Of a DNA stretch of 49,877 bases, positions 3,410-49,877 are shown in pieces. Both the position numbers and the translations under genes were made by a program. The stretch's first letter is position 1. Every line of letters starts with the position of its first letter. The notes under the pieces are model-generated. The model saw only the letters and a list, made by a program, of their open reading frames with translations. It was not told the DNA's origin and did no database searches. The stretch is from the IMG/VR virus record IMGVR_UViG_3300048592_000335, positions 1 to 49,877 of that record. One strand, given 5' to 3'. The stretch is from a virus.

Positions 3410-4917
3410 TCGACATCTTTAGCTTGACCCCGGAACAGCTTGATAAATTCATCAGCATTCAGGCCCAAATTGCGCGCCAAGAGGAAGACGCTGGCAAGGT
3501 CAGGGCGGCGCGTGACTATTACCGTGGTGAGCATCCGACGATGTTGACGCAACGCCAGGAGGAGTTCCTGGGGCGTGCGCTGACTCAGGGGGATTACGGC
3601 TTTGCCCATAACCTGATTAAGTCCGTGATTGACACCTTGCGGGAACGCCTGGATATCACCGGCTTTACGGTCAATGGCGAGGCGGCGGGCGAGGATTCAC
3701 CAGAAGGTCAACTGGCGGCGCTGCTGTGGGAATGGTTCAAGCATAGCAAGATGCCATCGCAACAGATCCGGCTATGGCGGCGGGCCTTGCGTGACGGCAA
3801 AACGTATCTCATGGTGGACTATGACAACGCCCACGGCCGGCCACGCTTCACCCTCCACGAGGTTGACGACGGGACCACCGGCGTTTCCATGCGGCGCGAT
3901 CCCAGTGACGAAAACTATGTGTTGTTCGCTTCCCGCTACTTCCAGGACCTTGACCCCGTGCGGATGATTGAGGGTAGCACGATCAACAGCACTGTGGCGC
4001 GGCGTACGGTCTACATGGCCCACGAAATCCGCAAGTATCGGCGCCAGGGCATTGCCAGCGGCCTGGGATTCATCACCGGTTGGGAACGCATCACAGACCC
4101 CGATGACGCCGGCGTGTGGCCCTTGCCGTGGGTAGACCGCCAGGGCCAACCGTTGGGCGTGCCACTTGTCGAATTTGCCAACCCTGGCGGCTCCGAAGTG
4201 GCCCAGATTGCCGGGCTGCAAAACAGCCTGAATAAGACCTGGCTTGACCTGATTGCGGCGGCGGATGCCAGCGGGTTCCCGTTGATTACATTCAACTACC
4301 GTGACGGTAAGCCCATGCCACTGGGGTTAATCGATGATAGCAACCTGGACGGTGAAGACGAAACCATCATTGCGCCGGGCCGGGGCTTGGAAATCTTTGG
4401 GGGGACCATTGACCGCATCGAAGGCGCAAACCTGGATCACATGATCCAACTCATCTGGACCATTACAGCGGCCATCGGTGGGATTACCAGGACGCCACAG
4501 TATTATCTAAAGCCAATTCTTGGCGTTGACGTGCCGAGCGGGGAAGCCTTGAAACAGTTGGAATCTGGCCTGGTGGCAAAGGCAGAGGAACGTCAACTGG
4601 TCTTTGGGGAAGCAATGGCGGATGCCATGAGTCTGGCCTATCGTGTGGCGCTGACCTTTGGGCCGGGCGGGATTCCGGTCATTGATGACCCGGTGATTGG
4701 GGTCCAGTGGGCGGACGCCAGTACCCGAATGGAAGAAACTGAGAGCAAGATTGCAGAGACTCACAAGGCGCTTGGCGTGCCCGATGTGGCTGTGTGGGCC
4801 CGCCTGGGCTACAGTCCCGAGCAAATCCAACGATTCCAACAAGCCAAAGAACTAGCGCAGGCCACTATGATCGCCAACATCGCGGCGGCGGCGCAACAGC
4901 CAGGGGCAGGAGCATAA
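3406..4917 (+). CDS. Portal protein (SPP1 gp6-like)
   Basis: A 503-aa protein in the canonical position after the terminase. The N-terminal pattern ARDYYRGEHP and HNLIKSVIDTLRERLDITGF, the mid-protein N-G/S-LNKTWLDLIAAADASGFP helix, and IQLIWTITAAIGGITRTPQYYL.. LKQLESGLVAKAEERQLVFG near the C-terminus are typical of the SPP1 gp6-like portal family. Portals form the dodecameric ring at the capsid vertex through which DNA enters and leaves, and dock TerL and the head-tail connector. The gene ends in an Ala/Gln-rich tail and overlaps the next ATG by one base. Confidence 0.88.
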   Translation: MIDIFSLTPEQLDKFISIQAQIARQEEDAGKVRAARDYYRGEHPTMLTQRQEEFLGRALTQGDYGFAHNLIKSVIDTLRERLDITGFTVNGEAAGEDSPEGQLAALLWEWFKHSKMPSQQIRLWRRALRDGKTYLMVDYDNAHGRPRFTLHEVDDGTTGVSMRRDPSDENYVLFASRYFQDLDPVRMIEGSTINSTVARRTVYMAHEIRKYRRQGIASGLGFITGWERITDPDDAGVWPLPWVDRQGQPLGVPLVEFANPGGSEVAQIAGLQNSLNKTWLDLIAAADASGFPLITFNYRDGKPMPLGLIDDSNLDGEDETIIAPGRGLEIFGGTIDRIEGANLDHMIQLIWTITAAIGGITRTPQYYLKPILGVDVPSGEALKQLESGLVAKAEERQLVFGEAMADAMSLAYRVALTFGPGGIPVIDDPVIGVQWADASTRMEETESKIAETHKALGVPDVAVWARLGYSPEQIQRFQQAKELAQATMIANIAAAAQQPGAGA

Positions 4918-5660
4918 TGAGAATTTTAATAATGGGCAATGATGGGGAACCTACTGTTTGGTGGCACGGAAATCGGTTCAGCAAAACACAGAGGCAAGTG
5001 TGGCTTCATTGGCCTGGGAATTACGCCGGCGTTGAGTGGTCTATAGGCAAGAATGGTTTAGGGGCTTATATTCAATGCAATGATCCAGTGGTTGGCGAGG
5101 AAGCGCTGATTATGCACATCCAATTACCGTTCCTCTTTTCAGTTTGGCTAATGGTACAAAATGTACCATTTCTCAAGAAATTACCCGGCGTGAAATGGCA
5201 GGCAGATGACCACGGCCGTGGTGGGGAGCGGGAGTTGTCATTGAAGTTTCACCACGGCGCTATGTGGTGGCGGCTTTGGCGCAATCCCAATGTCGGCTAT
5301 GCACACGACTGGCGTGACAGCAACTTCAACCCGATACGTTTTTTTCTGGGTTATCCAAAGTACAGCGAAGGCCCGCGCAATCACTTCGATTCCTACCTGG
5401 AAATGCCGGAAGGTGTTTACCGGGTTTCCATAGACATTTACACGGCAATCTGGAAGCGTCCCCGTTGGCCTTGGGCAACGCGCATTACCCGCTCCGACAT
5501 CGAATTGAAGGATGGGGTATGGGTTCCGGGCAAAGGTGATAATGGATGGGACATGGATGATGACACCATTTATTCCATGACATGCAATGCTGCCACTGTA
5601 GCCGAAGCGTTAGACCATCTACGGCAATCTGTGTTGCGTGATCGAGAACGGTACGGGTAG
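4917..5660 (+). CDS. Hypothetical protein in head gene cluster
   Basis: A 247-aa protein starting at the ATG within the TAATG junction with the portal gene. It is rich in Trp and aromatic residues (VWWHGNRFSKTQRQVWLHWP near the start, MWWRLWRNPN around residue 118), with no signal peptide or membrane span. I recognise no family. It is the last gene before the 410-bp repeated element at 5680, so it may originally have been directly upstream of the MuF-like gene. A structural or accessory role is inferred only from place. Confidence 0.7.
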   Translation: MRILIMGNDGEPTVWWHGNRFSKTQRQVWLHWPGNYAGVEWSIGKNGLGAYIQCNDPVVGEEALIMHIQLPFLFSVWLMVQNVPFLKKLPGVKWQADDHGRGGERELSLKFHHGAMWWRLWRNPNVGYAHDWRDSNFNPIRFFLGYPKYSEGPRNHFDSYLEMPEGVYRVSIDIYTAIWKRPRWPWATRITRSDIELKDGVWVPGKGDNGWDMDDDTIYSMTCNAATVAEALDHLRQSVLRDRERYG

Positions 5661-5679
5661 CATTCTTTAATTGATTTTT

Positions 5680-6089
5680 GGATCACATTTTTTGCGTTTG
5701 GATCACATTTTTCGTTTTGGATCACTTTTTAAAATCAAAATGTGATCCAGGATTTCAACCAATGCTTGCTACATTTTGGTGGGGTGCTACAGGTGGTAGA
5801 GGTGAAAAAGAGGAAGGGGCCTTATATTAAATAAATGTGTTTGTGGATCACAAGATCACTTTTTTTTTATATTAGATGTCGCGTGGCAACTTTTTCCCTT
5901 ACGTTTTACCTTACGGACGTTCCAAGACATTTTCCGCCAAGATCCATCTATGCGCGCAAAAATGTGATCTTGTGATCCAAATGCCCCTTTTTGGGGTGCT
6001 CTACCACCTGTAAATCTATGGATCACATTTTTAAAACAAAAGTGATCCAAGTCGAAAAAATGTGATCCGTAGCAGAAAAAATGTGATCC
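5680..6089. repeat. 410-bp mirror-symmetric GGATCAC element, copy A
   Basis: This fills the 447-bp gap between two rightward head genes. Left block: three direct GGATCAC motifs about 20 bp apart, the third forming a hairpin with an inverted GTGATCC (5719-5748). Right block: the mirror image (about 6020-6089). Inside lie an inverted pair ACAGGTGGTAGAG / CTCTACCACCTGT and an inverted pair GGATCACAAGATCAC / GTGATCTTGTGATCC around a core of about 100 bp. Reverse-complement copy B lies at 33718-34126 with roughly 94% identity; differences, including one-base indels, fall in spacers and spare the motifs. Open frames crossing it are not credible genes. Possible natures: a MITE-like mobile element, a replication or partition site with iterons, or a protein-binding array. 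No target-site duplication was seen. Confidence 0.85.
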
Positions 6090-6107: not shown

Positions 6108-7622
6108 ATGGATAGTATTATTGCAGCGCTGTTGGCATCCGGCGCCATAGATGACGAAACCGCCGGCATACTTCAACGGCAAAACGACATAGACGCCGCT
6201 AGGGTATGGGCTGAAAATGTGCTGACCACGGCAACCCAAGGAGCCTTGACAGCGCAACAGCAGCGGCTTTTGGCGCTCCTGGTTAACACCGAGAACAGCC
6301 CCACGGCCGCCGAGCTAAACACGTTCTGGTCAGCCGAGAATGATCTGCTGTATGATGCCTTGGAACCTGACATAATGCGCTTGGTCTTGGAACGGGCCAC
6401 GCTTGCCGCCGTGACAACAGGCCAAACCTTTGCCTACACCAACGGCCTGGCGAGGGCGTGGGCACAAACCTATTACCGTAGCGCCACCGAGTTTGGATCA
6501 GTCCCTAACCTGAACCAGACGACCCGGCAACAGTTCCAGGCGGTCTTCGATCAATGGCTTGGCGGGCAGCTTGGCCGCCGTGGGTTGCCTGACCTCATCA
6601 CAGCGCTTACGCCCACGTTCGGCCCCGTGCGCGCCCGTGCCATCGGCGTTACTGAGACAACACGTATCTTTATTGAGTCACAGAGAGCCGTGGATCGTGA
6701 TAACCCCTACGTGATTGCTTATCGTTGGCAAACGGCGGCGGATGAACGAGCGGCTGTGTGTCCGATTTGCGGTCCTATGAATGGCCGGATTCGTCGCAAA
6801 GATCAGGGGTGGGGTAGCGGCTTGGATATCCCGGCCCATCCCCGTTGCCGTTGCCACGAAAGCAGGGAAACGGCGGGTACGCTTGGTGAATTGCCCACAG
6901 GGACGCCACAGCCGACGCCACAAGCCACGCCGGAAGCGGTAGCGGCGGTGGGATTGACACCGAGCGGGAAACCAATTAGTAGTGCGTTAGAAATACCGCG
7001 AGCCAGTAACCGAGTAAACGACGCGGCTCGTACCGTTGTTGACGCAATCGACAGCGTGCATGGTGACGGTAAATTGTTCCGTATTCCAATCATTACGCCT
7101 AGCAATATGGGCAATTCACTCGGTGAATTTCGCTATGAGATAAATTACGGGGCACCTCTTGAAATAGCTATCAAATTTAGGGGAGAACGGCTGCATAGCA
7201 CAATAGCGCATGAGATCGGGCACTTTGTGGAAATCGGCGCAATCCGTAACGCTGTAGAGAACAGTGACGCAGTTGCAGCGGCATGGGCCAATGTAGTTGC
7301 CGTGGCAGATGCCACGGCAACGCTAAGCAAATTGCGCGGATTACGGGATGGTGCTGAGCTTTTGACTATTGTTAGGCCAGATGGGACACAGTACGCAGCA
7401 CGCGCCGACAAAACACACCTAGATTACTTGTTAAGGGAAGAAGAAATTTGGGCCCGTGCCTACGCTCAATACATTACCGTGCGCAGTGGTCAGGCTGATT
7501 TACGGAATGACCTAGATGGATTGCGTAATCAGCGCTATTCAACTGCGTGGTCAGATGATGACTTTGAACCAGTGGCGGCGGCCATTGATAATTTATTCAA
7601 GGTGTTGGGGTGGATGAAATGA
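6108..7622 (+). CDS. MuF-like head protein with C-terminal zinc-metallopeptidase domain
   Basis: A 504-aa protein. Residues about 1-250 match the MuF / SPP1 gp7 minor head protein fold, ending with the diagnostic CPICGPMNGRI ... IPAHPRCRCH cysteine/histidine cluster. A Pro/Thr linker (GTPQPTPQATPEA, about 262-278) leads to a second domain with HEIGH at 368-372 (HExxH zinc site) and a Glu-rich helix REEEIWARAYAQY near 443-455 that could give the third ligand. MuF proteins are packaged in the capsid and can be ejected with DNA; C-terminal enzyme or toxin domains on MuF are a known theme. The substrate is unknown. It starts 18 bases after element A with only a weak ribosome-binding site. Confidence 0.82.
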   Translation: MDSIIAALLASGAIDDETAGILQRQNDIDAARVWAENVLTTATQGALTAQQQRLLALLVNTENSPTAAELNTFWSAENDLLYDALEPDIMRLVLERATLAAVTTGQTFAYTNGLARAWAQTYYRSATEFGSVPNLNQTTRQQFQAVFDQWLGGQLGRRGLPDLITALTPTFGPVRARAIGVTETTRIFIESQRAVDRDNPYVIAYRWQTAADERAAVCPICGPMNGRIRRKDQGWGSGLDIPAHPRCRCHESRETAGTLGELPTGTPQPTPQATPEAVAAVGLTPSGKPISSALEIPRASNRVNDAARTVVDAIDSVHGDGKLFRIPIITPSNMGNSLGEFRYEINYGAPLEIAIKFRGERLHSTIAHEIGHFVEIGAIRNAVENSDAVAAAWANVVAVADATATLSKLRGLRDGAELLTIVRPDGTQYAARADKTHLDYLLREEEIWARAYAQYITVRSGQADLRNDLDGLRNQRYSTAWSDDDFEPVAAAIDNLFKVLGWMK

Positions 7623-20577: not shown

Positions 20578-21213
20578 TTACCGCAACATATAATAGGTCC
20601 TACTGCCAATCGTGCGTTGGCTTGACACCAGAAACGCACGGTCAGTATACCAGGATTGATCCACGATTTCTATATCGTCTTCTGGTGGCTCCTTTTCGGG
20701 GCGCTCGGGTTTGTTTGTCTTGAATTCCTTGTGGGGATTGGGAACCCGCGCCGGAAAGACTTCCAGGTCTGTGAGGTCAGCCGCCATCTTTTCCCACTCA
20801 GCAGCAATGTTACCCCGCCTTTCGTAGCCCAACGCCATGAGCATCCCAAGGCCGGAGGGGTCCGTCTCTGGATTCCGCCACTTGTCATACTGTCCCCGTG
20901 TTGGTATCCAATCGCCACTGTACAGATCTTGCGCTGATGCCAGGAGCAGTTCCCGCGCCCGGTCGGGGTCCAACTCTGCCCGGTGGCGCTCTTTCGGCAG
21001 TGGCAAACCCAGTAGGTCTGCACAGAGAGCGGCCCAGCCCTCCAGGGTGTGTTCGTAGCCTAATCGGTCGCATATGGTTTGCGAGCTGGGGATTGCCGTT
21101 TTCAGACGCCAGTCCATAAACTGTTTCAGGCGTGGCGCATAGGCACCGTCAAACAGTTCATCAGCGGCTTGCTGCAAATAAAGCTTGGCTTCCTCTCTGG
21201 TAACGTTTCTCAT
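20578..21213 (-). CDS. Protein with two HTH-like repeats
   Basis: 211 aa from the ATG at 21213, which has GGAAAG upstream and overlaps the previous stop (ATGA); an upstream in-frame ATG at 21261 would add 16 residues. Two repeats of about 65 aa are visible (LYLQQAADELFDGAYAPRLK..F..W ... LGYEHTLEGWAALCADLLGL and LLLASAQDLYSGDWIPTRGQ..KW ... LGYERRGNIAAEWEKMAADL). The spacing resembles homing endonuclease-associated HTH repeats, so DNA binding is plausible. The C-terminus is acidic and Pro-rich. Last gene of the leftward operon. Confidence 0.6.
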   Translation of the reverse strand: MRNVTREEAKLYLQQAADELFDGAYAPRLKQFMDWRLKTAIPSSQTICDRLGYEHTLEGWAALCADLLGLPLPKERHRAELDPDRARELLLASAQDLYSGDWIPTRGQYDKWRNPETDPSGLGMLMALGYERRGNIAAEWEKMAADLTDLEVFPARVPNPHKEFKTNKPERPEKEPPEDDIEIVDQSWYTDRAFLVSSQRTIGSRTYYMLR

Positions 21214-21389
21214 TTCGTCTTTCCAAAATGTCCGTGATGGTATGCCCCGCAAAACTTGCACCGATATGGATGGGTGATCTCCCCGGTTCGGCGGCGTAGG
21301 TAGATACTGGCGCGCTGCGCAGCAGACCAGGTGGGATACCCTCGCTTATTGTTGCAGCTCTTGGGCGGTGCAAAGCGTTCGTTACGCAT
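21210..21389 (-). CDS. Small zinc-binding protein
   Basis: A 59-aa protein from the ATG at 21389 with GTTGGAA upstream. The pattern C-x3-K-x2-Y ... A ... R ... PYRCKFCGAYHHGHFG matches a family of small phage and plasmid proteins with one zinc site near the C-terminus followed by a W/Y-H motif. It overlaps both flanking genes by ATGA or 8 bases. Function unknown, probably nucleic-acid binding. Confidence 0.6.
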   Translation of the reverse strand: MRNERFAPPKSCNNKRGYPTWSAAQRASIYLRRRTGEITHPYRCKFCGAYHHGHFGKTK

Positions 21390-24882: not shown

Positions 24883-24911
24883 AGTCTACCATGATTACCA
24901 TTGCGTGTCAA
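24883..24911 (-). promoter_or_regulatory. Leftward sigma70-type promoter PL1
   Basis: TTGACA (24906-24911), a 17-base spacer and TAGACT (24883-24888), read on the minus strand, upstream of the small membrane gene. It lies inside the operator-like repeat and would be occluded by a repressor bound there. Confidence 0.8.
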
Positions 24912-24946
24912 GCATCAATTTGCGCAAATCGCAATTTTAGTTTGCG
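24901..24946. promoter_or_regulatory. Operator-like repeat O1
   Basis: A 46-bp block, 44/46 identical to 33642-33687. It contains TTTGCGCAAATCGCAA, with TTGCG/CGCAA half-sites, overlapping the -35 box of PL1. Related sites lie between the two HTH regulator genes, so this is probably an operator of the lysogeny switch. Confidence 0.7.
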
Positions 24947-25237: not shown

Positions 25238-26092
25238 TCACCATGCTTTCTTTTTAGAAACTCTGGGCCATCCGCCGCCTGATTCACCGTGTTCAAAGCG
25301 GGCGGACTTGGCGGCGTTGATTGCTCTTATAATGCTGTTGTCGAGCAAGCCCCAGTTCTCGGGGATAACAACAAGGCCATTACTTCCGGCCTTAAGAGTA
25401 CATCCTTCCACGACTCTACTTGTGCCTATCTTTTGACTCCAATGGTTTTCCCCCCATTTGTTTAGTAACCAACCTTTATAAATAAGATATACATCTTTAG
25501 TACACCTTGTATTGCCAAGCGATACATCTTTCAAGTATTTCCCCAGAGAGTGAAAATCACCCTCGTTGACGGACAGCAAATCTCCATTGTGATCGATGTA
25601 GTCAAATTCATATGGACCCAGATCGCATAGTTCAACGAATACTCCTTCCCGACTATCAAGTAAATATGAAGCCAATGACTTCATATTGTATTGCAAATCA
25701 ACTAAGGACTCATCAGTACGGAGGAAATCGCCGGGTAACCATTCTTGCCAGGCGTGGCCCAAAACCATTAACGCAGTAAATCCCTGTTGACTATCCTCTA
25801 TGTCAGGCTGGCCGATTAACAACAAGATTGGCTGTTCAAGGCCAGCGCTTAGGAATTCTGCTTTTTGGAATTCATCTTTTTCGACCATGCCGGAAGCTTT
25901 GATTTCCACCCAACATCCTTGTCTGGGTAACCAAAAGTCAGGCAGGTACCAACCCGCATCACCGAGATCATAGCCTTCCTTTTCGTACTCCCATTCCACC
26001 CCAAGGGCATCAAAGAAGACAGCCCAACGCGCTTCCAGACGACTGCGGAAGCGGTACCCCTTATATGATGTTTCGATAGCCTTAATTGCCAT
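25238..26092 (-). CDS. PD-(D/E)XK endonuclease-like protein
   Basis: A 284-aa protein with GGGGGATC before ATG. The first 75 residues carry a restriction-endonuclease-like core: YRFRSRLEARWAVFFDALGV (Glu about 20), WYLPDFWLP (Asp about 52) and CWVEIKAS (Glu-x-Lys). The remaining 200 residues are a soluble domain without known motifs. This core is widespread in phage genomes. Likely cuts DNA or RNA during replication or host takeover. It is directly upstream of the VRR-NUC-like gene, so the phage has two nucleases in a row. Confidence 0.72.
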   Translation of the reverse strand: MAIKAIETSYKGYRFRSRLEARWAVFFDALGVEWEYEKEGYDLGDAGWYLPDFWLPRQGCWVEIKASGMVEKDEFQKAEFLSAGLEQPILLLIGQPDIEDSQQGFTALMVLGHAWQEWLPGDFLRTDESLVDLQYNMKSLASYLLDSREGVFVELCDLGPYEFDYIDHNGDLLSVNEGDFHSLGKYLKDVSLGNTRCTKDVYLIYKGWLLNKWGENHWSQKIGTSRVVEGCTLKAGSNGLVVIPENWGLLDNSIIRAINAAKSARFEHGESGGGWPRVSKKKAW

Positions 26093-26583: not shown

Positions 26584-26986
26584 TGAGTAACCCCCTTGTA
26601 CTCTGCAACTTCTCCGGGCCTACTCTGGCCCAACGCCAGGAGTACCGGAACAACTCACGTAGAACTGCGAATTTCACAGCGTTGGTTCGGTTCCATTCTT
26701 CGACGGCTGCTGTGTCTAGTTTCCACTTACCCCACTTCTCAACCCACACCGCCCCGGCTGGCCCGGCCATTCGTGTTGACAACTCGGCATTCGTGAAGAC
26801 GTAACAGGTATCCGCCCCAAGTGGCCTGCAATCCCGCAGGACATCGGCCAAGACTTCCCACGGTTCAGCGCCGGATGCGTCCCCGACTTCCACCAACTCC
26901 CCGTTGTATTTCCGCAACTTGGCGAGGGCGGCGGCGCGGTTACCGTCCTGCAATAGACCTATCAGCAAAGCGTTGGCTTCGTTCAC
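26570..26986 (-). CDS. Hypothetical protein (138 aa)
   Basis: GTG start in a GTGA overlap with the prim-pol gene; its end overlaps the next gene by 14 bases. An N-terminal helical segment (NEANALLIGLLQDGNRAAAL) is followed by a small alpha/beta domain (CYVFTNAELSTRMAGPAGAV, WVEKWGKWKLD). No catalytic motif recognised. Coupled translation with the prim-pol suggests a replication accessory. Confidence 0.55.
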   Translation of the reverse strand: MNEANALLIGLLQDGNRAAALAKLRKYNGELVEVGDASGAEPWEVLADVLRDCRPLGADTCYVFTNAELSTRMAGPAGAVWVEKWGKWKLDTAAVEEWNRTNAVKFAVLRELFRYSWRWARVGPEKLQSTRGLLSESQ

Positions 26987-29688
26987 AGTCCGATTTCCTC
27001 AGCAGTTACCATGTGGCTTTCCCCCTCTTCCAGGGCCGACGATTTCAGCACCAAGACCCGTGGCCGCTTGCCGGTGACTGGATCATAGAGCGGTACCGTG
27101 CTCTTGCCGTCGCGCCCGACCGTGGCCAGGGCATCCAAGGTCTTTAGCTGTGCGTACAGGCTGTTTTTGGTCATCCCGTTGAGGGCGTCCCGGTTGACGG
27201 TTTCCACCGCCTGGATGGCTAAATCAGGGTAGAGGCAAAGGTTGCTTTCGCCATCGTACCAACCGATGACGGGGACGCCGTGCGGCGCCGACGTGGCCCC
27301 AATCGGCAGGACATGTACCCGGCCCGTTGCCATCAATGCCCCAAGTATCGCCAGAAACTTGTTGGCTTCCAGGTGGTCCGATGTGTGGCGCTCGATTGAG
27401 CCGGCCAGGTCCAAGAGCGTTTGATGGTGTAACGCCATGCGTCCCATGATTAAATCGTGGATGGGTTCCAGTTCAGCCAGGGCTGACCATACCGCACTCT
27501 GCAAAGCGAAGTTGGTAGCGCTGCGTAAGATATTCTCGGCCCGTGGCGAGTGGATGCGGATATGTTCTGCAAACTGGGCGCGGGCGGTGTCGAAGACATC
27601 TTTGGCCATGCCCACTACAGCCGGTCCCCGTGGCCCTTCCAGCAAATCCAACCAGGCGGCCCCGATGGCGTGAAGATGCCCCGCAAGGTCAGTGGCGACG
27701 GCAATCCCCTCGGGCACTTCCCCGTGTTTACTTTCGAGGTCCACGATAATCAGCCGGGCCAATGCTGCGGTGTCGGTCCCTGGGATGTCCTCGCCGGTCA
27801 TCAATGGCCAGCAATGCAAGGGCGTCGTCTTGGCGTTCTGGCCCGTGCGGGTTTGGCGGCTCTTGGTGTGCCCTTCCATGAGGGCATGAATTAAGGCAAC
27901 GGCGCTTTCCCGGCCTTGCGTGTTCGGCTTAAAATTGTCCAACATCCAGGGTAGGTCACCGATCTCAGCGGCCCGGCCAATGATCCCGTTGGCGGTTCCG
28001 CCGTGGGCGCCCATTTTTTCAAACAGTTGTTCACTGGCGAACCGTGGCCCCCATAGCGCCATCGCCAGGCGGCCCGTGGTGGTTTTCATAGAGCCGGTGA
28101 TACCACGGAGGAATAGCCCGTAGCGGTCACCACGCCATCCGGCAAGGGCAGCCAATGGGCCCAGCAGCGCATGGGCTACAACTACCGTGCCATATTCTCC
28201 TATGCCATCCATCAACGCATCCAGGGCAGTTACAGCGTGGCCCATATCAGCGCCGCCGGGTAAATGGTAGGCTGCGGCCTTGTCGTCCAGTTTGATTTCA
28301 ATGCCGGCGGGTTCACGCCCTGGGATGAGGAAGCGGCCATCACGCCAGCCGATGCGGTTATAGCGACGGGTAATGACCTGGCCGCCACTTAGGTTTTTGA
28401 TGGCAGATCCCAGGTGCTCTGTGGAACCGGCGTAGACCGTATCCAATGAGCTGATAGCATCCAGGGCAGCTTTCAGGCGCGATGGCGATCCCCAGTCGGC
28501 GGCTGATATTTCCTTCCTGAACGGTCCGCCACGTTTGCCAACCCCTTCAATCACATAGATTCGTTCGTCGTTTTCGTCAATGATTTCGTGGATGATTCGC
28601 GCCTGAAGGTCAGCCAGTTTTTCAAAATCAATCTTGCCCTTTGTCTTTTTGAACATGACCAAACAGCCATCCTGCACAGCAAACGGCCATGCCGGGTAAT
28701 CCGGCGCATCGTCGGCGGGTTCCTCTGGGTCTTCAATGGTTATGGTGTGGCCTATCTGAATATGGCTATGCACTGCGCTAAATCCGTCGTAACTATCCGT
28801 AAACGAGCCTTGCCATCCGTGGGCGCGGGCCAGGTGATCCACCGTCCCGAGCGTTACACCATCGCTGTGAAATGAAGCAAACTTGGCGGCAACTTCCCCA
28901 GGCGTACCCGGTGACCAGGATTCAATCAGGTCGATCCCATCGTCGCCAGGAAACACCGAGTGAACCGCCATCAGCACGCCGATCCAGTCCTGGTAGGTCA
29001 AGCCGCCTTCCCCATCGCTGATAGACCAATTTGGAATGTAGCTCAGGGCATCTGCTAGTGTCTCGGCTTCCGGCGCAATCTCTACCGTGCGTTGGGCGGC
29101 GCGCTCCTTTGCGCGCCGCCGGTCTTCCATGATGGCATCCAAGAGCGCTTTCAGTTTCGGCGGGACCGGCGCCAGCGGGATTTCCCCAGGCCCATAACCA
29201 TCTTCCCATTGATACTGCCCGCCGCTTTCGTGGTTGGACGGTGGCAATACAATGTACGCACCCCAACACCGCACATCGATCCCATCCGGCAAAGCCTTGT
29301 TACTGTTGCTGTAGGCGGCGGTGGTAGCGTAGAGCAGGTGCACCCCGCCGCCTCCGGTTAGACTGGTGACGGTCTGTTCATCCGCTGGCGTTATCAGCTT
29401 TTCCACTTCGCTGGCCAGGTACACATCCTTGTATAGGTCCAGGTCCAACGCCACTATCCCGCTAGGCCCGCAGTGTAAGCCGATGTTGGCTTCTGGGTTG
29501 TTGCGCCATAGGCCACTTAGGATCTTGGCATCGGTCGATGCTGCGTAACAACCACGGTGGGGGATCGGGTGTTTGCCGGGGCTTGTGCAATCAGGTTTCC
29601 CACATGCACAAGCCCCGTTCTCGTCAATCCACCACACCGGGAATACATGCCAGCCGAGCGCTGCATATTCCAGGGCGTAATTGAGCAT
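26983..29688 (-). CDS. Primase-polymerase/helicase replication protein
   Basis: 901 aa. Residues 1-200 are an archaeo-eukaryotic-type (prim-pol) domain with a zinc-like CACGKPDC motif (about 27-34), the catalytic VALDLD (Asp82, Asp84) and GGGGVHLLY. Residues 210-295 resemble a PriCT domain (YIPNWSISDGEG, VDHLARAHGW). An ATPase follows with GITGSMKTT (Walker A, 529-537) and WMLDNF (about 581-586), like DUF927-type superfamily 3/6 helicases. A winged-helix segment lies near the C-terminus (LYAQLKTLDALATVGRDG). It would make primers and unwind DNA at the phage origin; this and the DinG-like helicase are the core replication enzymes. Confidence 0.85.
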   Translation of the reverse strand: MLNYALEYAALGWHVFPVWWIDENGACACGKPDCTSPGKHPIPHRGCYAASTDAKILSGLWRNNPEANIGLHCGPSGIVALDLDLYKDVYLASEVEKLITPADEQTVTSLTGGGGVHLLYATTAAYSNSNKALPDGIDVRCWGAYIVLPPSNHESGGQYQWEDGYGPGEIPLAPVPPKLKALLDAIMEDRRRAKERAAQRTVEIAPEAETLADALSYIPNWSISDGEGGLTYQDWIGVLMAVHSVFPGDDGIDLIESWSPGTPGEVAAKFASFHSDGVTLGTVDHLARAHGWQGSFTDSYDGFSAVHSHIQIGHTITIEDPEEPADDAPDYPAWPFAVQDGCLVMFKKTKGKIDFEKLADLQARIIHEIIDENDERIYVIEGVGKRGGPFRKEISAADWGSPSRLKAALDAISSLDTVYAGSTEHLGSAIKNLSGGQVITRRYNRIGWRDGRFLIPGREPAGIEIKLDDKAAAYHLPGGADMGHAVTALDALMDGIGEYGTVVVAHALLGPLAALAGWRGDRYGLFLRGITGSMKTTTGRLAMALWGPRFASEQLFEKMGAHGGTANGIIGRAAEIGDLPWMLDNFKPNTQGRESAVALIHALMEGHTKSRQTRTGQNAKTTPLHCWPLMTGEDIPGTDTAALARLIIVDLESKHGEVPEGIAVATDLAGHLHAIGAAWLDLLEGPRGPAVVGMAKDVFDTARAQFAEHIRIHSPRAENILRSATNFALQSAVWSALAELEPIHDLIMGRMALHHQTLLDLAGSIERHTSDHLEANKFLAILGALMATGRVHVLPIGATSAPHGVPVIGWYDGESNLCLYPDLAIQAVETVNRDALNGMTKNSLYAQLKTLDALATVGRDGKSTVPLYDPVTGKRPRVLVLKSSALEEGESHMVTAEEIGL

Positions 29689-29690
29689 AG

Positions 29691-32069
29691 TTAGAATTCC
29701 AGTGTGAAATCGACGGTCTCACGTTTTGGGGCGGCAGTGTGCGGAATCAATGAAGGCATCGGAGCAACGGACAGGCCGCGGCGTTGGGCGTAGAAATCGT
29801 GTACTCGTGGTAAATCGTGGATCAGCTTGGCATCGGGCAAGGCGGGCAAGACTGTGTTGCGGCCATATTTGGTAGTGCGTAGGCGCGTATCCAAGATCGC
29901 CACCGTGCCATAGTCGCGCCGAGTTCTGATGAGCCGACCAAACGCCTGCTTCAGGTCCACAATCATCGTGGGCACACGCAATTTATCAAACGGGTACATG
30001 TCCGCTTTGAACCCGCTCAATCCCTGCTCTTTGGCTTGGCGGTGCAGGTCCGCTTCCAAGGCTGCGTTGAGGGGCGACGGCGCCATGAATGGCATCTTGT
30101 CCACCACCACCAAACGTAGGGCGTCCCCCTCGATTGATACCCCTTCAAAGAAGCTCTTGGTACCAAATAAGACACCATTGCCAGACTTAGCGAACCGGCG
30201 CGCCATCTCTTGCTTCCCAAGGTCTTCCCCCTGGATGAACACCGGATAATCTCGCTTGAACACCGGCGCCAGAGCATCACGCACGTTGCGCAGGTTGGCG
30301 TAAGAGGTGAAGAGCAGGAAAGCGCTGCCCTTCGATGCATCAACCAAGCGCTCGATTTCTTCGATAACCCATAGCGGATACTCTTTATCATTCGGCGCGG
30401 GACTCGCGCCGTTTGGGATATACAACAGCGTGTTTTTGGGATAGTCGAATGGGCTTTCGACTTCCATCACCAGACCACCACGAACACCCGTTTCCCGCTG
30501 GAACATTTCCAGATCCGGCGCCATCAACGTGGCACTGGTAAAGATCGTGGCATGTTGGCGCATGGGGACGGTTTCCACCCGATGGGTACCACCAAGCCAC
30601 TGCTCAAGGTCCACCAGGTCCGCATCACCGAACGCATCCACTTTATGAATGCAGTCTGGCCCGTACGGTTTACCGTTGAGAATCGAGACGGCCGGCGCTG
30701 TCAATACCCGGTTACACAGGGTACAGCGCGTGGGGTCTAGTTCCACGGTTTCGGTGGTGTAGCCGACCAGGTTCTTAAGGAACCAGGAGACGTTATAGGG
30801 CACGGTGAACAGCTTCACACCGTCCTTATATTCAATCCAGCGCGTCCAGCCGTCTTTGGTTGCCATCGAAAACGCCTTGACCTTATCGGCTATCTTGCGT
30901 ACCCGGTCAGCGTCCCGTTTCATCCGGCGCTCTTCCCGGTCGGCGGGAATAATGCCGGGGTCCCACAGGTCGCGCGCTGCGTCCTCTAATTCCTGAGCCA
31001 GGCGCAACCCGGCGGGAAACTCCTGGTCAGGCTGTACGCCAACTTGGGGGTCTGACTTCTGCGCAACGTGGCCGGCAATCTCGCTACTAAAATGAGCTGC
31101 AAGCCGGTCGGCGTCGCGTGGATCTACCTCTTCCGGGTAGCTATCCAGGTAATCCAGGGCACGTTCGATCTGGTGGTAACCGAGTTCTACCCCAAGGGCG
31201 TTGCGGGCATAGTCAACGAGTTTATGGGCCTCATCTACCACGATTACATCGGTCTGCGGTAGGATACCGGCGCCGGCGTAGGCCATGTTGAGACACAACA
31301 GGGCATGGTTAGTCACCACAACGTCAGCGGTTTCACGGGCATCTTTGGCGAGGTAGTAAAAGCAGCGGTCACCGAATACGCAGCTTTTACGGCCGGGGCA
31401 CTGGTCATCAATGGCGATCCCCTGGCGCTCAGCAGGCGTCAACGGGAACGTGATCTCTTCCATGTTGCCGGTTTCGGTGGCGTGGTACCACTGCGCAAGG
31501 TCGCCCGTGATGTTGCTGCTCAGGTCTTCGGCCTTGGCTTTACATGCGTAGTTGCTTTTCCCCTGAGCCAGGGCCACGCGCTTCCCTGGGAAGATTTGGA
31601 GCAAAAACGGGATGTCGCTGTTCATCAACTGGGCCTGTAAGGCTTTGTTACTGGTAGAGACGGTGATCGTCTTGCCCATCGCCATTGCTACGGCGAGGTA
31701 GGCAAAGCCCTTGCCCGTGCCCGTGCCAGCCTCAATCATGGCGCAATCATTCATTTCGATCGCACGTTGCACCATGCGCGCCATGTATAGTTGCTGTTTA
31801 CGTACCTCGTAGTTTTCTTTGATGGCGGCGATGGGCCCATTGGGACCAAACACCGTATCCGCCACGGATTCCCAGGCCATGACCAGTTTGTCTTTGGATT
31901 CCACCCGCTCAGCATGGGATGGCACGCCCATGAGAGCGCAGAGGTCAGACCACCCGGCTTTGTTGCCAGAAATAGTAAGCACAAACTGACCATCCTTGAC
32001 AACGAACGATGGGCGGGCAGGGCGGTCCTGGCAGGCAGTGGAGACTAATTCTCTGATTGTTTCAATCAT
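29691..32069 (-). CDS. DinG/XPD-like iron-sulfur helicase
   Basis: 792 aa from the second of two adjacent ATGs (32069; the first is 32072), with AAGGGG upstream. Motifs: EAGTGTGKG (Walker A, about 114-122), VVDEAH (motif II), and AFGRLIRTRRDYG (motif VI). Between motif I and II four Cys (YACKAKAE, then CPGRKSC, GDRC) fit the 4Fe-4S cluster of the XPD/DinG family. A CTLCNRVLT ... GPDCIHK insertion in the middle adds an extra zinc-like site. DinG helicases unwind 5'-3' and resolve R-loops. The gene starts just after a hairpin that follows the next upstream gene. Confidence 0.85.
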   Translation of the reverse strand: MIETIRELVSTACQDRPARPSFVVKDGQFVLTISGNKAGWSDLCALMGVPSHAERVESKDKLVMAWESVADTVFGPNGPIAAIKENYEVRKQQLYMARMVQRAIEMNDCAMIEAGTGTGKGFAYLAVAMAMGKTITVSTSNKALQAQLMNSDIPFLLQIFPGKRVALAQGKSNYACKAKAEDLSSNITGDLAQWYHATETGNMEEITFPLTPAERQGIAIDDQCPGRKSCVFGDRCFYYLAKDARETADVVVTNHALLCLNMAYAGAGILPQTDVIVVDEAHKLVDYARNALGVELGYHQIERALDYLDSYPEEVDPRDADRLAAHFSSEIAGHVAQKSDPQVGVQPDQEFPAGLRLAQELEDAARDLWDPGIIPADREERRMKRDADRVRKIADKVKAFSMATKDGWTRWIEYKDGVKLFTVPYNVSWFLKNLVGYTTETVELDPTRCTLCNRVLTAPAVSILNGKPYGPDCIHKVDAFGDADLVDLEQWLGGTHRVETVPMRQHATIFTSATLMAPDLEMFQRETGVRGGLVMEVESPFDYPKNTLLYIPNGASPAPNDKEYPLWVIEEIERLVDASKGSAFLLFTSYANLRNVRDALAPVFKRDYPVFIQGEDLGKQEMARRFAKSGNGVLFGTKSFFEGVSIEGDALRLVVVDKMPFMAPSPLNAALEADLHRQAKEQGLSGFKADMYPFDKLRVPTMIVDLKQAFGRLIRTRRDYGTVAILDTRLRTTKYGRNTVLPALPDAKLIHDLPRVHDFYAQRRGLSVAPMPSLIPHTAAPKRETVDFTLEF

Positions 32070-32090
32070 CATGTACCCCTTCGATAAACA

Positions 32091-33623: not shown

Positions 33624-33652
33624 AGTATAGCACTGCCTTAGTTGCGTGTCAA
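33624..33652 (-). promoter_or_regulatory. Leftward sigma70-type promoter PL2
   Basis: TTGACA (33647-33652), a 17-base spacer and TATACT (33624-33629) on the minus strand, about 65 bases before the first gene of the replication operon. Operator-like sites lie on both sides: 33642-33687, and a weaker TTGCGTAAATCGGTAA around 33603-33618. Confidence 0.85.
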
Positions 33653-33687
33653 GCATCAATTTGCGCAAATCGCAATATTTGTTTGCG
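33642..33687. promoter_or_regulatory. Operator-like repeat O2
   Basis: Second copy of the 46-bp block seen at 24901-24946, with two mismatches. It overlaps the -35 box of PL2 in the same way as O1 does at PL1, so both leftward promoters are probably controlled together. Confidence 0.72.
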
Positions 33688-33717: not shown

Positions 33718-34126
33718 GGATCACATTTTTCAGCCTATGGATCACATTTTTTCGACTTGGATCACTTTTGTTTTAAAAATGTGATCCATAGATTTACAGG
33801 TGGTAGAGCACCCCAAAAACACCCGTTTGGATCACAAGATCACATTTTTGCGTGCATAGATGGATCTTGGCGGAAAATGCCTTGGAACGCCCGTAAGGTG
33901 GAGCGTAAGGGAAAAAGTTGCCACGCGACATCTAATATAAAAAAAAAGTGATCTTGTGATCCACAAACACATTTATTTAATATAAGGCCCTTCCTCTTTT
34001 TTGCCTCTACCACCTGTAACACCCCTCAAAAACGTAGCAATCATTGGTTGAAATCTTGGATCACATTTTGATTTTAAAAAGTGATCCAAAACGAAAAATG
34101 TGATCCAAACGCAAAAAATGTGATCC
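33718..34126. repeat. 409-bp mirror-symmetric GGATCAC element, copy B
   Basis: The reverse-complement copy of 5680-6089. All GGATCAC/GTGATCC motifs, the AGGTGGTAGAG inverted pair and the GATCACAAGATCAC inverted pair are kept. Differences are single bases and short indels in spacers (for example the stretch between 33811 and 33830). It occupies most of the 772-bp gap between the leftward promoter PL2 and the rightward promoter at 34266. Its outer ends lie 31 bp from operator O2 and 140 bp from the rightward promoter. Two overlapping frames across it are not conserved in copy A because of indels and are not called genes. Confidence 0.85.
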
Positions 34127-34265
34127 AAAAATAGCCTGCAACCAGCATCGGATGGGCGGGCGGCATGGTCACCCCCTCGGACCCCAAGGGGCGCAAACCT
34201 TACGAAAACAAAAGGAGAAATCCCGAAATTCGCCAAAACTCGTTGAAATTCGTCAAAATTGGGCG

Positions 34266-34294
34266 TTGACATGTTACGTAACATGTGTTATACT
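34266..34294 (+). promoter_or_regulatory. Rightward promoter with palindromic operator
   Basis: TTGACA (34266-34271), a 17-base spacer and TATACT (34289-34294). The spacer carries a perfect 18-bp palindrome ACATGTTACGTAACATGT (34269-34286) that overlaps the -35 box, an ideal repressor site different from the TTGCG-type operators. Upstream, AAATTCGCCAAAA and AAATTCGTCAAAA are A/T-rich near-repeats that could act as an UP element. Confidence 0.82.
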
Positions 34295-35254: not shown

Positions 35255-35300
35255 TGTAACTATCAGATAGGTTATCTCGATGCGCCCTGCGATAGTTACA
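35255..35300. other. Candidate attP: inverted repeat beside integrase
   Basis: TGTAACTATC (35255-35264) and GATAGTTACA (35291-35300) form a perfect 10-bp inverted repeat around a 26-base asymmetrical centre. The site abuts the end of the serine integrase gene and contains its stop codon. The total of 46 bp is the usual size of a serine-integrase attP. It could instead be an RNA hairpin at the integrase mRNA end. Confidence 0.4.
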
Positions 35301-36906
35301 GAAAAATTACATCAATCCGGCGCTCCTCATCAATGAACACTTTAACCCGGCGCTTAAGCCAAGTGTTGGCCCGGCGCACGTCATCAGACAACAGGTAGGC
35401 CAGGCCATCTTTGCGCACGTCCTGGATGCGGTCACCCCGTTTGGCGTCATGCTCCAGGGCGTGTTCAATATCCCGCAGTCTGGTCAATTCGGCCTGAGCG
35501 TCTGTGATCTGCTTTTTGAGGGCGTCCACAATGGCGCTATGGCGGTTGGAATCGATGGCGCCGCCTGCGTAGTGGTCTACATCGGCTTTCGTGATGCCAG
35601 CCTCTAGGCGTTTAATTTTGGCCTTTACCGTGGCGATTTGCTCAGCGACCGATGGCCCAATGCCGGCGGTGTCGGCGGCCCCGGTAATGGCGTTGGCGTC
35701 AAGAGAATCACTTAGCCCTTCGATGGCATCTTGCAGCGCTGCGGTAATGTGGCGCTCCGATATACGGACATGGTGCTCCCGGCAACGGTACTGGATCACC
35801 CAGTAGCGCTTCTGTTCTCCGCTGGCCAATGTGCGGTCACTATATGACGTGCAAGCGTGTAGACGTTTCCCACATTCGCCACAGTAGCACAGCAGGCTAT
35901 AGCGATACGGTGATCCGATGGCGCGGCGGGCCTGGCGCCTGCCCTTGAGTTCAGCCAGGACCAACCGTGCCCGGTCTTCCGTGATAATCGCAGGCCAAAT
36001 GCCCTGCGCTTCGACATATGGCCTGGACTCACTGCGACGGTTCAACTGCGCAATCCCAGCGTAAATCCTGGAGCGGCTTAGGACGTGGTATATCTGCGCA
36101 TCGGTCCAACCCTGGCCACCGCTTGGGGTCTTGTGGCCGGCGGCGTTGAGGGCATCGGCGATCGTCGGCTTACCCAGGCCATCATCCAGGTACATCGATA
36201 CAATCAACCGAATGGTAGCGGCGGCGTCTTCGTCAATGGTGTAGCCGGTAATCTTCCCCTTATCGTTCCTGACTTCGTGCCAGCCCCAGGGCGTCACACC
36301 GGGGAAGCGGCCCCGCTCCACACGACGGATCATGCCGTCCCGGTGGTTCTCTGTAATCTGCGCGATCTCATTCTGATAACCAACCGCCTGGAACGCCAGC
36401 ATCAGGTTGGCCTGGTATGACGCCTGGCTTTTCACGTCGAAGGCGTGCGGCGGCGCCTGGGTACTGTAATAGAAGATGCCACTGATTTGGCATAGCCTGA
36501 CGATGGTCAGTTGCAACACAGCGTCGCGCCCTACCCTGCCTAGGTTGTAAAAGGAAAATGCCTGGAATGACTTGGCGAGGATAGCGGCGCGCAGCTCGGC
36601 ATAGGGATAGATGCGTGGCGTGGCCCTGAGTTCCACCAGCTTGGCATCAATGGCGGCTTCCAGGGCGTCCCCTTCGAGTCCATCCAGGCCGGTGGAATCC
36701 AACCGCCACCCGGTAACCCGTTGCGCAGCTTCGGACAACTCGGTGATGTCTCGACTCTCACCGGGTATCACGAACTGGTAGACGACTCTCCCCCACTTGC
36801 GACCTTCTATCAAGTTCATCGCAAGCTGTCTCGTCAAGCTTATTTTTTCTTCAGATGCCTGAGGGCGCGATGACACAGCCGCCCATCCGACGATGTTAAT
36901 GTTCAT
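35296..36906 (-). CDS. int: Large serine recombinase (phage integrase)
   Basis: 536 aa. The N-terminal resolvase-like domain begins VGWAAVSSRPQ, with Ser12/Ser13 in the place of the catalytic serine, followed by the recombinase domain (RVERGRFPGVTPWGW ... GLGKPTIADALNAAGHKTPSG) and a zinc ribbon (CYCGECGKRLHAC ... YRCREH), then a coiled coil (VAEQIATVKAKIKRLEAGIT). Large serine integrases recombine attP with attB without high sequence demand, making the phage temperate. The leftward direction shares a transcript with the lipoprotein. An accessory directionality factor is not identifiable, though the small basic proteins nearby are candidates. Confidence 0.9.
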   Translation of the reverse strand: MNINIVGWAAVSSRPQASEEKISLTRQLAMNLIEGRKWGRVVYQFVIPGESRDITELSEAAQRVTGWRLDSTGLDGLEGDALEAAIDAKLVELRATPRIYPYAELRAAILAKSFQAFSFYNLGRVGRDAVLQLTIVRLCQISGIFYYSTQAPPHAFDVKSQASYQANLMLAFQAVGYQNEIAQITENHRDGMIRRVERGRFPGVTPWGWHEVRNDKGKITGYTIDEDAAATIRLIVSMYLDDGLGKPTIADALNAAGHKTPSGGQGWTDAQIYHVLSRSRIYAGIAQLNRRSESRPYVEAQGIWPAIITEDRARLVLAELKGRRQARRAIGSPYRYSLLCYCGECGKRLHACTSYSDRTLASGEQKRYWVIQYRCREHHVRISERHITAALQDAIEGLSDSLDANAITGAADTAGIGPSVAEQIATVKAKIKRLEAGITKADVDHYAGGAIDSNRHSAIVDALKKQITDAQAELTRLRDIEHALEHDAKRGDRIQDVRKDGLAYLLSDDVRRANTWLKRRVKVFIDEERRIDVIFL

Positions 36907-36974: not shown

Positions 36975-37133
36975 ATGCCTACAAAGAACAAGGATGTAAC
37001 CAAGATGAGCCGTGAAGAATTTCAACGGCTCCCCCGCGCTGAACGGCTCAAGGTTTTAAATGAACTCCGGAAACGGTACAAATCAAAGGCCACTACCACG
37101 ACGTTGATTGATACCTATTTTACGAAGAATTGA
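36975..37133 (+). CDS. Small basic protein (52 aa)
   Basis: ATG preceded by AAAAAGGGAACC. Lys/Arg-rich helical sequence (MSREEFQRLPRAERLKVLNE) that could bind DNA. It is transcribed away from the integrase gene, and its end overlaps by 19 bases the end of the oppositely directed repressor gene. The size and location fit a recombination directionality factor or an antirepressor, but this is inference. A 13-bp palindrome AATACGACGTATT lies 20 bases upstream. Confidence 0.6.
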   Translation: MPTKNKDVTKMSREEFQRLPRAERLKVLNELRKRYKSKATTTTLIDTYFTKN

Positions 37134-37639
37134 CCGTGCCCTGACCTGATCATCCCCCACCAGGTCAGGGCCAATCCTTGCATAAAATCAAAGATTTCCG
37201 TCTCTATTTCATGGCGTTCTTGGTCTATGCCGTAGATTTGCCGGATGATATTGACGCACAGTTGGCGCGTCCCCTCTTCCATCGCGTCTATCATGTTACA
37301 GGCGGCGTCGGCTTCCGGCGTGATGTAGTGATCACCGCTGTTGGTGGCTTCCCTGCCACGCACGATCCAATCCATTGACGTGTCAAACATCTCACAAATG
37401 GCTTCCAGTAAATCACGGTCAAGCCGGTTAACGCCATCTTTAATCAGGCGGCTGATTGCGGTGGGCGATGTGTGTAAATCGTAAAACTTACCGTTCGGTC
37501 CTCTGACTTCCCCGTTGAGAAACGCCACCAACTCTTTCTGCTCATACTCGCGCCCACGGTCGGCGCGACCCCGATCCCGCAACAGTTGCAGGATGCGATC
37601 ACCCATTGTTTCACTGATGTTCATTTTTAGTCCGATCAT
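37115..37639 (-). CDS. XRE-type HTH repressor
   Basis: 174 aa from ATG 37639, with GAGAGGG upstream; ATG 37624 is an alternative. The first 100 residues form a helix-turn-helix domain (QKELVAFLNGEV ... TSPTAISRLIKDGVNRLDRD ... LLEAICEMFDTSMDWIV), typical of phage CI-like and bacterial XRE regulators. The C-terminal part is helical, not a LexA-type protease, so RecA-driven self-cleavage is not expected. It is divergent from the next HTH gene with three operator-like sites between them, the arrangement of a lysis-lysogeny switch. Confidence 0.8.
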   Translation of the reverse strand: MIGLKMNISETMGDRILQLLRDRGRADRGREYEQKELVAFLNGEVRGPNGKFYDLHTSPTAISRLIKDGVNRLDRDLLEAICEMFDTSMDWIVRGREATNSGDHYITPEADAACNMIDAMEEGTRQLCVNIIRQIYGIDQERHEIETEIFDFMQGLALTWWGMIRSGHGQFFVK

Positions 37640-37709
37640 GTGTGTATCCCTCTCTGGAAAACAAACTATTCTACGACGGTTATTGCAGATAGCACCGTGA
37701 TTCGGGCAA

Positions 37710-37799
37710 TTTTGCGCAAATCGCAATTTGCCTATTGACAAATCGGGATTGATCGTGCTACCATTTGCGCATAACGCAATTACGTGTGCAAATCGCAAG
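37710..37799. promoter_or_regulatory. Divergent control region with three operator-like sites
   Basis: TTTTGCGCAAATCGCAATTTG (37710-37730), ATTTGCGCATAACGCAAT (37763-37780) and TGCAAATCGCAAG (37787-37799). The rightward promoter is TTGACA (37735-37740), 18 bases, TACCAT (37759-37764), so the first site lies just upstream of it and the second overlaps the -10. This is analogous to the OR region of lambdoid phages, with a common TTGCG/CGCAA half-site also found at O1 and O2. Confidence 0.75.
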
Positions 37800-37808
37800 A
37801 GGAGGATT

Positions 37809-38090
37809 ATGGAAAACATCATTGAACGGATTCGACCAGGGGCACCGCAACCGGCGTTGGCTCCGGCGCTCGAAATCGATACCGACGAATTACGTGTTTC
37901 TATCGGCGCTCGGCTGCGTGACATACGCTTAGAACGGGGCGCGACGATCAAGACCGTGGCGGATGCTACCGGCATTTATGAATCGCACCTGTCACGGGTG
38001 GAAGGTGGCAAAGCGGGCCTGGATATCCGTCAGACGTTAATCCTGGCCAATGCCTATGGCATGAGCGTTGAAGAGCTACTCGGGGTCTAA
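37809..38090 (+). CDS. Small XRE-type HTH regulator (Cro-like)
   Basis: 93 aa with GGAGGA before ATG 37809. The HTH domain (RLRDIRLERGATIKTVADAT, then GIYESHLSRVEGGKAGLD) and TLILANAYGMSVEELLGV are a canonical XRE fold. It is the first gene of the long rightward run from the switch region, the place of cro in lambdoid phages. Its short length with no effector domain supports a Cro-like role. Confidence 0.78.
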   Translation: MENIIERIRPGAPQPALAPALEIDTDELRVSIGARLRDIRLERGATIKTVADATGIYESHLSRVEGGKAGLDIRQTLILANAYGMSVEELLGV

Positions 38091-48592: not shown

Positions 48593-49877
48593 CGCAACAG
48601 ATCAGTATCGGGGTAACACTCGGAGCGGGCAAGGCCGGCCAAGCGGTCGGCTACCGTATCCTAAATCACGATGGCAGCACGTACAGCGCTTTTACCACCA
48701 CGGGCGTGGTAGAGACGGTGGCGGGGACGTACGTCGTCAATGCACTGGTTGACGCGCCGGACGGTGGCGGTCGTGTGGTGTGGGGCATCTCCGGTACTGA
48801 TTATCTGGTGGACGTTCTGAACCCCATCACCACGGCCAACCTGACCACGGCTGCGATTGCTGCGATTTGGGCGGCGCTAACCAGCGGGCTAACCACCGTG
48901 GGCAGTATCGGGAAACTGTTGGCAGATAATATCAACGCCACAATTTCCAGCCGTTCCACGTTGACCACAGCCCAGGTCAATGCCGAGGCCGATCAAGCTC
49001 TTGCCGACGTTGGCTTGACTTCGACCGTTACCGGCCGCATTGACGCCGCGGTGTCTACCAGATCCACGTTGACGGCCGCCGACGTGTGGACCCATGCCAG
49101 CCGTAGCCTTACCACATTTGGCACATTAGCCGCCGATGTGTGGGCCGTGGCTACCAGGACCATTACCGGCGGAACCATTGCCACGGTATCGGACAAAACC
49201 GGCTACAGCCTAAGCAGCGCCGGGATTACGGCGATATGGGCCGCACTAACTTCCGGCCTAACCACGGTTGGTAGTGTTGGGAAATTGCTGGTAGACAACA
49301 TCAACGCCACTATCAGCAGCCGGTCAACGTTGACAGCAGCGCAAGTCAACACCGAGGCTGATCAGGCCTTGGCGGATGTTGGCCTGACTCCGACAGTTAC
49401 AGGCCGGATTGACGCGGCTATCAGTACACGTTCCACCTTGACCACAGCCCAGGTCAATGCCGAGGCGGATACCGCCCTTGCAGACGTTGGCCTGACTTCG
49501 ACGGTAACAGGCCGGATTGACGCGGCGGTCAGTACCCGTTCCACCTTGACCGCTGCTGATGTGTGGGCACATGCAAGCCGTAGCCTTACCACCTTTGGCA
49601 CTTTGGCGGCTGACGTGTGGGCCGTGGCGACTCGCACGATCACGGGTGGCACTGTCAGCGCGGTATCGGACAAGACCGGCTATAGCCTAAGCAGTGCAGG
49701 CATTACGGCGATTTGGGCAGCGCTGACCTCTGGCCTAACCACGGTTGGTAGTGTTGGGAAATTGCTGGTAGACAACATCAACGCCACTATCAGCAGCCGG
49801 TCAACGTTGACAGCAGCGCAAGTCAACACCGAGGCTGATCAGGCCTTGGCGGATGTTGGCCTGACTCCGACAGTTAC
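48589..49877 (+). CDS. Repetitive tail fibre protein, N-terminal part
   Basis: Opens at ATG 48589 and stays open through the window end; joined to base 1 the frame continues to the stop at 1385 (1162+1385 = 2547 bp, divisible by three). The first 80 residues form a unique beta domain (ISIGVTLGAGKAGQAVGYRI), probably virion attachment. Then come tandem repeats: VGSIGKLLADNINATISSRS, TAQVNAEADQALADVGLT, TGRIDAAVSTRSTLTAADVW, TLAADVWAVATRTITGGT, DKTGYSLSSAGITAIWAALT. Successive large units begin near 48895, 49258 and 49735. The gene forms a long fibre whose length may vary with repeat number. Confidence 0.78.
   Translation, partial: MTQQISIGVTLGAGKAGQAVGYRILNHDGSTYSAFTTTGVVETVAGTYVVNALVDAPDGGGRVVWGISGTDYLVDVLNPITTANLTTAAIAAIWAALTSGLTTVGSIGKLLADNINATISSRSTLTTAQVNAEADQALADVGLTSTVTGRIDAAVSTRSTLTAADVWTHASRSLTTFGTLAADVWAVATRTITGGTIATVSDKTGYSLSSAGITAIWAALTSGLTTVGSVGKLLVDNINATISSRSTLTAAQVNTEADQALADVGLTPTVTGRIDAAISTRSTLTTAQVNAEADTALADVGLTSTVTGRIDAAVSTRSTLTAADVWAHASRSLTTFGTLAADVWAVATRTITGGTVSAVSDKTGYSLSSAGITAIWAALTSGLTTVGSVGKLLVDNINATISSRSTLTAAQVNTEADQALADVGLTPTV
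49274..49400. repeat. Internal identical copy of the terminal overlap
   Basis: 127 bp, base-for-base the same as 1-127 and 49751-49877. It lies 477 bp (159 codons) before the terminal copy, so it is one period of the fibre gene repeat. Confidence 0.9.
49751..49877. repeat. Terminal overlap, copy at right end
   Basis: Same 127 bp as at position 1. Joining the two ends keeps the reading frame of the fibre gene. Confidence 0.9.

Follow-up and report, generated by a model that had tools for sequence, protein, structure and literature searches.

Genome layout and the two copies of the element

The window analysed here is the whole of IMG/VR record IMGVR_UViG_3300048592_000335, a stretch of 49,877 bases with a G+C content of 55.4% and an identical 127-base sequence at both ends. 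Its gene content (head and tail, replication, and integrase genes) identifies the virus as a temperate siphophage, and searches with its helicase, portal, and terminase returned no close relatives. The host is probably a Chloroflexota bacterium, judging only by two protein features, a PTPT-rich lipoprotein and a YLPL-type C-terminus. The genes and features discussed below are listed in Table 1.

Table 1. Genes, promoters, and parts of the repeated element, with positions in the 49,877-base window
Feature	Position	Strand or direction	Remarks
Head and tail genes	1 to 20.5 kb	rightward	
phrog_20814 protein	4911..5660	+	no assigned function; the phage collection has three distant relatives
Copy A	5674..6089	-	inverted; flanked by the phrog_20814 and gp7-like/MuF head genes
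Candidate unwinding region, A	5822..5871		sequence identical to 33934-33983
SPP1 gp7-like/MuF minor head protein	6108..7622	+	directly right of copy A
Replication operon	33.6 to 20.6 kb	leftward	
Prim-Pol primase-polymerase	26983..29688	-	DUF927 domain; replication module
DinG/YoaA-like helicase	29691..32072	-	replication operon
Leftward early promoter	33624..33652	-	TTGACA-17-TATACT; replication operon; reads away from B
Copy B	33718..34132	+	non-coding; imperfect palindrome of GGATCAC(A/T)TTTT iterons
Left outer iteron set, B	33718..33787		sites 33718+, 33739+, 33759+ (21 and 20 bp apart), 33787-
Second motif TACAGGTGGTAGAG, left arm of B	33795..33808	+	
Inner double site GGATCACAAGATCACATTTTT, left	33829..33849	+	
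Central spacer of B	33850..33941		asymmetric; about 92 bp
Candidate unwinding region, B	33934..33983		least stable 50-bp duplex in the window, equal to its twin in A
Inner double site GGATCACAAGATCACTTTTTT, right	33942..33962	-	mirror of 33829-33849
Second motif TACAGGTGGTAGAG, right arm of B	34005..34018	-	
Right outer iteron set, B	34058..34126		mirror image; sites 34058+, 34087-, 34106-, 34126- (19 and 20 bp apart for the last three)
Rightward early promoter	34266..34294	+	TTGACA-17-TATACT; reads away from B
Large serine integrase	35296-36906		
HTH repressor candidate	37115-37975		weak match

A non-coding element of approximately 410 bases is present twice in the window, as inverted copies (A and B) that are 94% identical and about 27.6 kb apart. 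A repeat search of the whole window recovers the inverted arms 5805-6093/33714-34002 (92%) and 5674-5818/33988-34132 (94%), and a self-search matches 5680-6089 on the minus strand to 33718-34126 at 94%; both searches bear out the coordinates, orientation, and identity in the preliminary description, where copy B was the reverse complement of copy A at about 94% identity and about 28 kb away. The G+C content of copy B is 38.6%, well below that of the genome as a whole. Copy A, together with an unusual ORF (the phrog_20814 gene), breaks the succession from portal to gp7. The C-terminal part of the adjoining gp7-like/MuF head protein contains a HEIGH zinc-protease-like motif, possibly marking a MuF-linked effector domain.

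The two promoters said to flank copy B were located at their described positions, each matching the consensus at 11 of 12 positions with a TG ahead of the -10 box, in a scan that overall found no excess of promoters over shuffled sequences. Near copy A, the best promoter-like site scores no better than 9/12. Because copy B lies outside both predicted early transcripts and copy A inside the late operon, any function common to the two copies probably acts as DNA. A perfect 18-bp palindrome, ACATGTTACGTAACATGT (34269-34286), unique in the window, lies over the rightward early promoter and is likely a repressor operator, and just upstream of the same promoter lies a pair of AT-rich direct repeats, each about 20 bp long (GAAATTCGCCAAAACTCGTT and GAAATTCGTCAAAATTGGGC, 34229-34262). 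On the other side, a 46-nt direct repeat (24901-24946 and 33642-33687, 96%) takes in a TTTGCGCAAA palindrome and the -35 region of the leftward promoter, which suggests that another leftward promoter, regulated together with the first, is present near 24.88 kb.

Repeat architecture, motif conservation, and duplex stability

Each copy contains ten exact GGATCAC sites and two with one mismatch, most of them followed directly by (A/T)TTTT, and 13-14 GATC sequences. With up to two mismatches allowed, the window has 25 occurrences of GGATCACATTTT, compared with an expected 4.5, and 20 of these 25 fall within the two elements. The sites follow a fixed order, in which three sites facing the same way and one facing back (in the left outer set of copy B, sites 33759 and 33787 form an inverted pair) are followed by an inner double site and a roughly 92-bp centre, after which the whole is repeated in mirror image. 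Spacing inside the sets is 19-21 bp (12 sites), or about two helical turns. The inverted motif TACAGGTGGTAGAG occurs four times in the window, always at mirrored positions of the two elements. Both copies as a whole are long imperfect palindromes, with self-complement scores of 100 and 98, where shuffled sequences reached at most 44 and 39, respectively. The palindromic design, TACAGGTGGTAGAG, and the melting-prone core described below were all absent from the preliminary description.

A slightly larger alignment of A with B, in which the element ends with AAAAAT at 34132, has 416 columns, 25 of which differ, one of these being an indel. Motifs occupy 126 of the 416 columns and contain none of the 25 differences (hypergeometric P = 9e-5; P = 0.013 once neighbouring differences are merged into 12 events), and three of 416 circular shifts of the motif mask are equally free of differences. 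This alignment is the comparison of motifs with spacers that had been proposed as a check, and it agrees with the earlier observation that differences fall in the spacers while the motifs stay intact; the exact conservation also supports the suggestion that the motifs are under selection. The accompanying idea of putative protein-binding sites between the divergent early promoters likewise finds support. No homologous element was found by blastn in phages and plasmids, or by exact patterns in viral and genome collections.

Nearest-neighbour stability was calculated over the whole 49.9-kb window in 50-bp segments, and the weakest duplex of all is the same segment in both copies (Table 1), with zero differences between A and B. 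With the other segment sizes tried, at least one copy was among the three weakest. A competing AT-rich patch is present near 25.46 kb, inside a gene, and the AT-rich gene at 25238-26092, whose N-terminus is resolvase/endonuclease-like, holds the third weakest-duplex region of the genome.

Similar arrays in other phages and known origins

A pattern scan for paired GGATCACNWTTT in 2.9 million viral contigs returned three loci (L110, L111, and L112). L110 and L112 are related phages that both have GGATCACTTTTTCC/GGTTCACTTTTTCC, and the gene concerned encodes an HTH_36 domain and matches the PHROG 'replication initiation O-like'. Five GGATCACTTTTTCC/GGTTCACTTTTTCC repeats, 22-31 bp apart, lie within this O-like initiator gene in L110 and occupy two reading frames in alternation (EEKVIL and GKSDP), which implies that the DNA, not the peptide, is what is kept. 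L111 was rejected as a related iteron array and is a plain peptide repeat. At a further locus, L021, three copies of GGATCACGATCACATTTT precede an HTH_36 gene with matches to replication-initiation families, and L091 has a similar array with no convincing initiator nearby. The near-identical iteron (GGATCACTTTTT) and its roughly 20-bp spacing liken the present element to the lambda-type origins in the O-like initiator genes of L110 and L112, from which it differs in being intergenic and palindromic, not inside the initiator gene. A wider scan for GGWTCAC-TTT matched mostly collagen-like peptide repeats and was not counted as support; the motif alone is thus not diagnostic of origins. In another phage (L116 9614-9663, L117, L118), an amidase gene has three GTGGTTCACTTTTGGC repeats at its end; all are in one frame, and they may be only a peptide repeat.

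An architectural parallel beside a related primase-polymerase is found in Streptococcus phage Sfi21, whose annotated 302-bp non-coding origin adjoins a Prim-Pol gene; the two Prim-Pol proteins share 28% identity (E = 6e-15). The Sfi21 origin, which the literature describes as a phage-resistance (PER) element (PMC6356513), is an imperfect palindrome (55-nt arms) with AGTAAC iterons in both directions and an AT-rich centre, and its palindrome score is 78, versus 100 and 98 here and shuffle maxima of 35-44. It resembles the present element in being non-coding, 300-400 bp long, palindromic with short two-way iterons, provided with an AT-rich core, and next to a Prim-Pol module, whereas its iteron is AGTAAC, the Sfi21 genome has just one cluster, and the two are without sequence similarity. 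No homology between the Sfi21 origin and the present element was detected, blastn finding no match in phages, and the parallel is drawn only in the sense that the two may work alike.

Few phages are known to have two origins. Satellite phage P4, with ori1 and crr, has a genome in which one initiator site forms two separate clusters. For a switch from theta replication to concatemer synthesis by fork stalling at a second origin, the textbook case is SPP1. Its two origins are similarly organised, with repeats and an AT-rich unwinding region; the second, oriR, lies in an interruption of the head genes near gp7 together with accessory ORFs, and a proposed role of gp38 bound there is to stall forks and set off concatemer synthesis (PMC6316719). 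The present phage shares the arrangement of one array in the replication region and one among the head genes near gp7, copy A adjoining the gp7-like gene; in SPP1, however, oriL lies inside the initiator gene 38, whereas both copies here are non-coding, 94%-identical palindromes. No initiator, loader, or helicase resembling gp38, gp39, or gp40 was recognised in the present phage, which has a Prim-Pol/helicase module instead. Origins of PICIs always have two iteron sets around an AT-rich region (PMC6092414). PICI/SaPI origins are alike in that two iteron sets flank an easily melted region and in their primase-initiator module (PMC6092414), and unlike in that the PICI origin follows the rep gene, while the present phage has two copies, both at a distance from the Prim-Pol gene, with the weakest stretch to one side of the centre.

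A probable iteron-type origin and its alternatives

Each element is probably a replication origin of the iteron type, or at the least an array of such build to which an initiator binds, a reading that the preliminary description did not consider and that fits both elements best. It is favoured by direct and inverted iterons at 19-21 bp that were kept exactly while the spacers changed, by the coincidence of the weakest 50-bp duplexes with one segment in both elements, by the position of copy B beside the replication operon, by near-identical iterons in or near the initiator genes of L110, L112, and L021, by the palindromic iteron origin that Sfi21 has beside a homologous Prim-Pol, and by the PICI origins with two iteron sets and the two origins of SPP1, one of them near gp7.

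The strongest rival is a bidirectional regulatory array, in which a repressor, activator, or silencer on the iterons would act on both early promoters from copy B and on the late operon at copy A, comparable to stoperators or an enhancer. Copy B does lie exactly between two divergent strong promoter-like sites, and arrays of identical sites suit cooperative regulators, but the sites are at least 65 bp upstream of both -35 boxes, the promoters hold their own, different operator-like palindromes, and no promoter-like site above 9/12 is found near copy A. Nor would such an array predict that both copies contain the weakest duplex of the genome, and we regard it as unlikely.

A MITE-like mobile palindrome inserted twice, such as an internally deleted IS21-type element, appears unlikely, although the two copies are near-identical, have long inverted arms, and lie between unrelated flanks, as would be expected of it. 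IS21 ends consist of repeated transposase sites (PMC10122671), which counts in its favour, as do the comparable direct repeats GGGTCAAATTT, about 24 bp apart, at the ends of IS1326; among the 13 IS21-family loci whose ends were examined, motif likeness was confined to the IS1326 group. Against insertion, A and B share no consistent target-site duplication (the joint hits are only GATC within the motif), the outermost units point inward here and outward at the ends of IS1326, the only element compared, and the motifs were kept while the spacers changed. No similar copy was found in 85,000 genomes (searched with one exact spacing), in plasmids, or in phages, and the window encodes no IstB.

We consider it very improbable that the element is a centromere-like partition site or a packaging site, even though inverted-repeat arrays occur at such sites too and copy A is near the terminase genes: the proteins scanned included no recognisable ParA or ParB, packaging from two inverted sites would run in opposite directions, and the presence of a large serine integrase points to an integrated prophage.

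That the element works as a structured RNA, in cis or in trans, is scarcely credible, despite a very strong fold of the strand (-158.7 kcal/mol, z -14), since that fold follows from the palindromic sequence; the central part by itself has no significant fold, no Rfam family matches the element, a stem needs no exact repeated motif, and neither early promoter transcribes copy B.

Inverted 410-bp copies at 94% identity can recombine homologously, but the earlier proposal that A and B serve to invert the 28-kb segment between them is not supported and most improbable. In the present orientation, terminase, portal, gp7-like/MuF, scaffold, and capsid follow their standard order on one strand across copy A, and an inversion would cut the late operon in two. 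Sites used by invertases are usually much shorter and less repetitive than this element, and no dedicated recombinase fits, the only one recognised being a large serine integrase, whose sites are usually short, unlike this element.

If the elements are origins, the replication initiator of the phage would bind the GGATCAC(A/T)TTTT sites as DNA, binding at the mirrored sets would melt the weak duplex at 33934-33983 (5822-5871 in copy A) and load the Prim-Pol/helicase machinery. Prim-Pol may itself be the initiator; its AlphaFold model (pLDDT 35) is too poor to look for an origin-binding domain. No HTH_36 domain and no significant match to the L110 or L021 initiators was found in the window, and the proteins scanned included no O-like PHROG. 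Copy B, flanked by the divergent early promoters and adjoining the replication operon, would be the main origin, and copy A, in the head-gene operon, either a second origin or a fork-stall site that triggers the concatemer switch, as has been proposed at SPP1 oriR; we infer both the origin activity and any such division of labour from architecture. Bridging of A and B by a bound protein is possible. A model of GC3/AT3 skew with antipodal breakpoints centred on copy B reaches a nominal p of 0.02, whereas an unconstrained two-breakpoint fit breaks elsewhere, and the skew gives no independent support.

Tentatively, and with considerable doubt, we extend this to a temperate phage with two inverted, near-identical, fully palindromic non-coding origins, which lie in the early switch region and the late head operon and are served by an undescribed type of initiator, possibly Prim-Pol/helicase, the late copy acting as a fork barrier or superinfection decoy. 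If the two arrays are indeed origins, this would be an independent second phage type with the SPP1 layout, in the form of non-coding palindromes, and the stall model would become testable by comparison. It would also tie the GGATCAC-TTTT iterons of unrelated phages to O-like initiators and so help in finding origins in metagenomic phages.

Internal repeats of other kinds are present elsewhere in the window. The last gene of the leftward operon (20578-21261, minus strand), which has no Pfam match, contains two that by eye are like homing-endonuclease-associated DNA-binding repeats, and a long fibre-like gene with internal repeats (1-873 and 48823-49877) runs across the contig ends.
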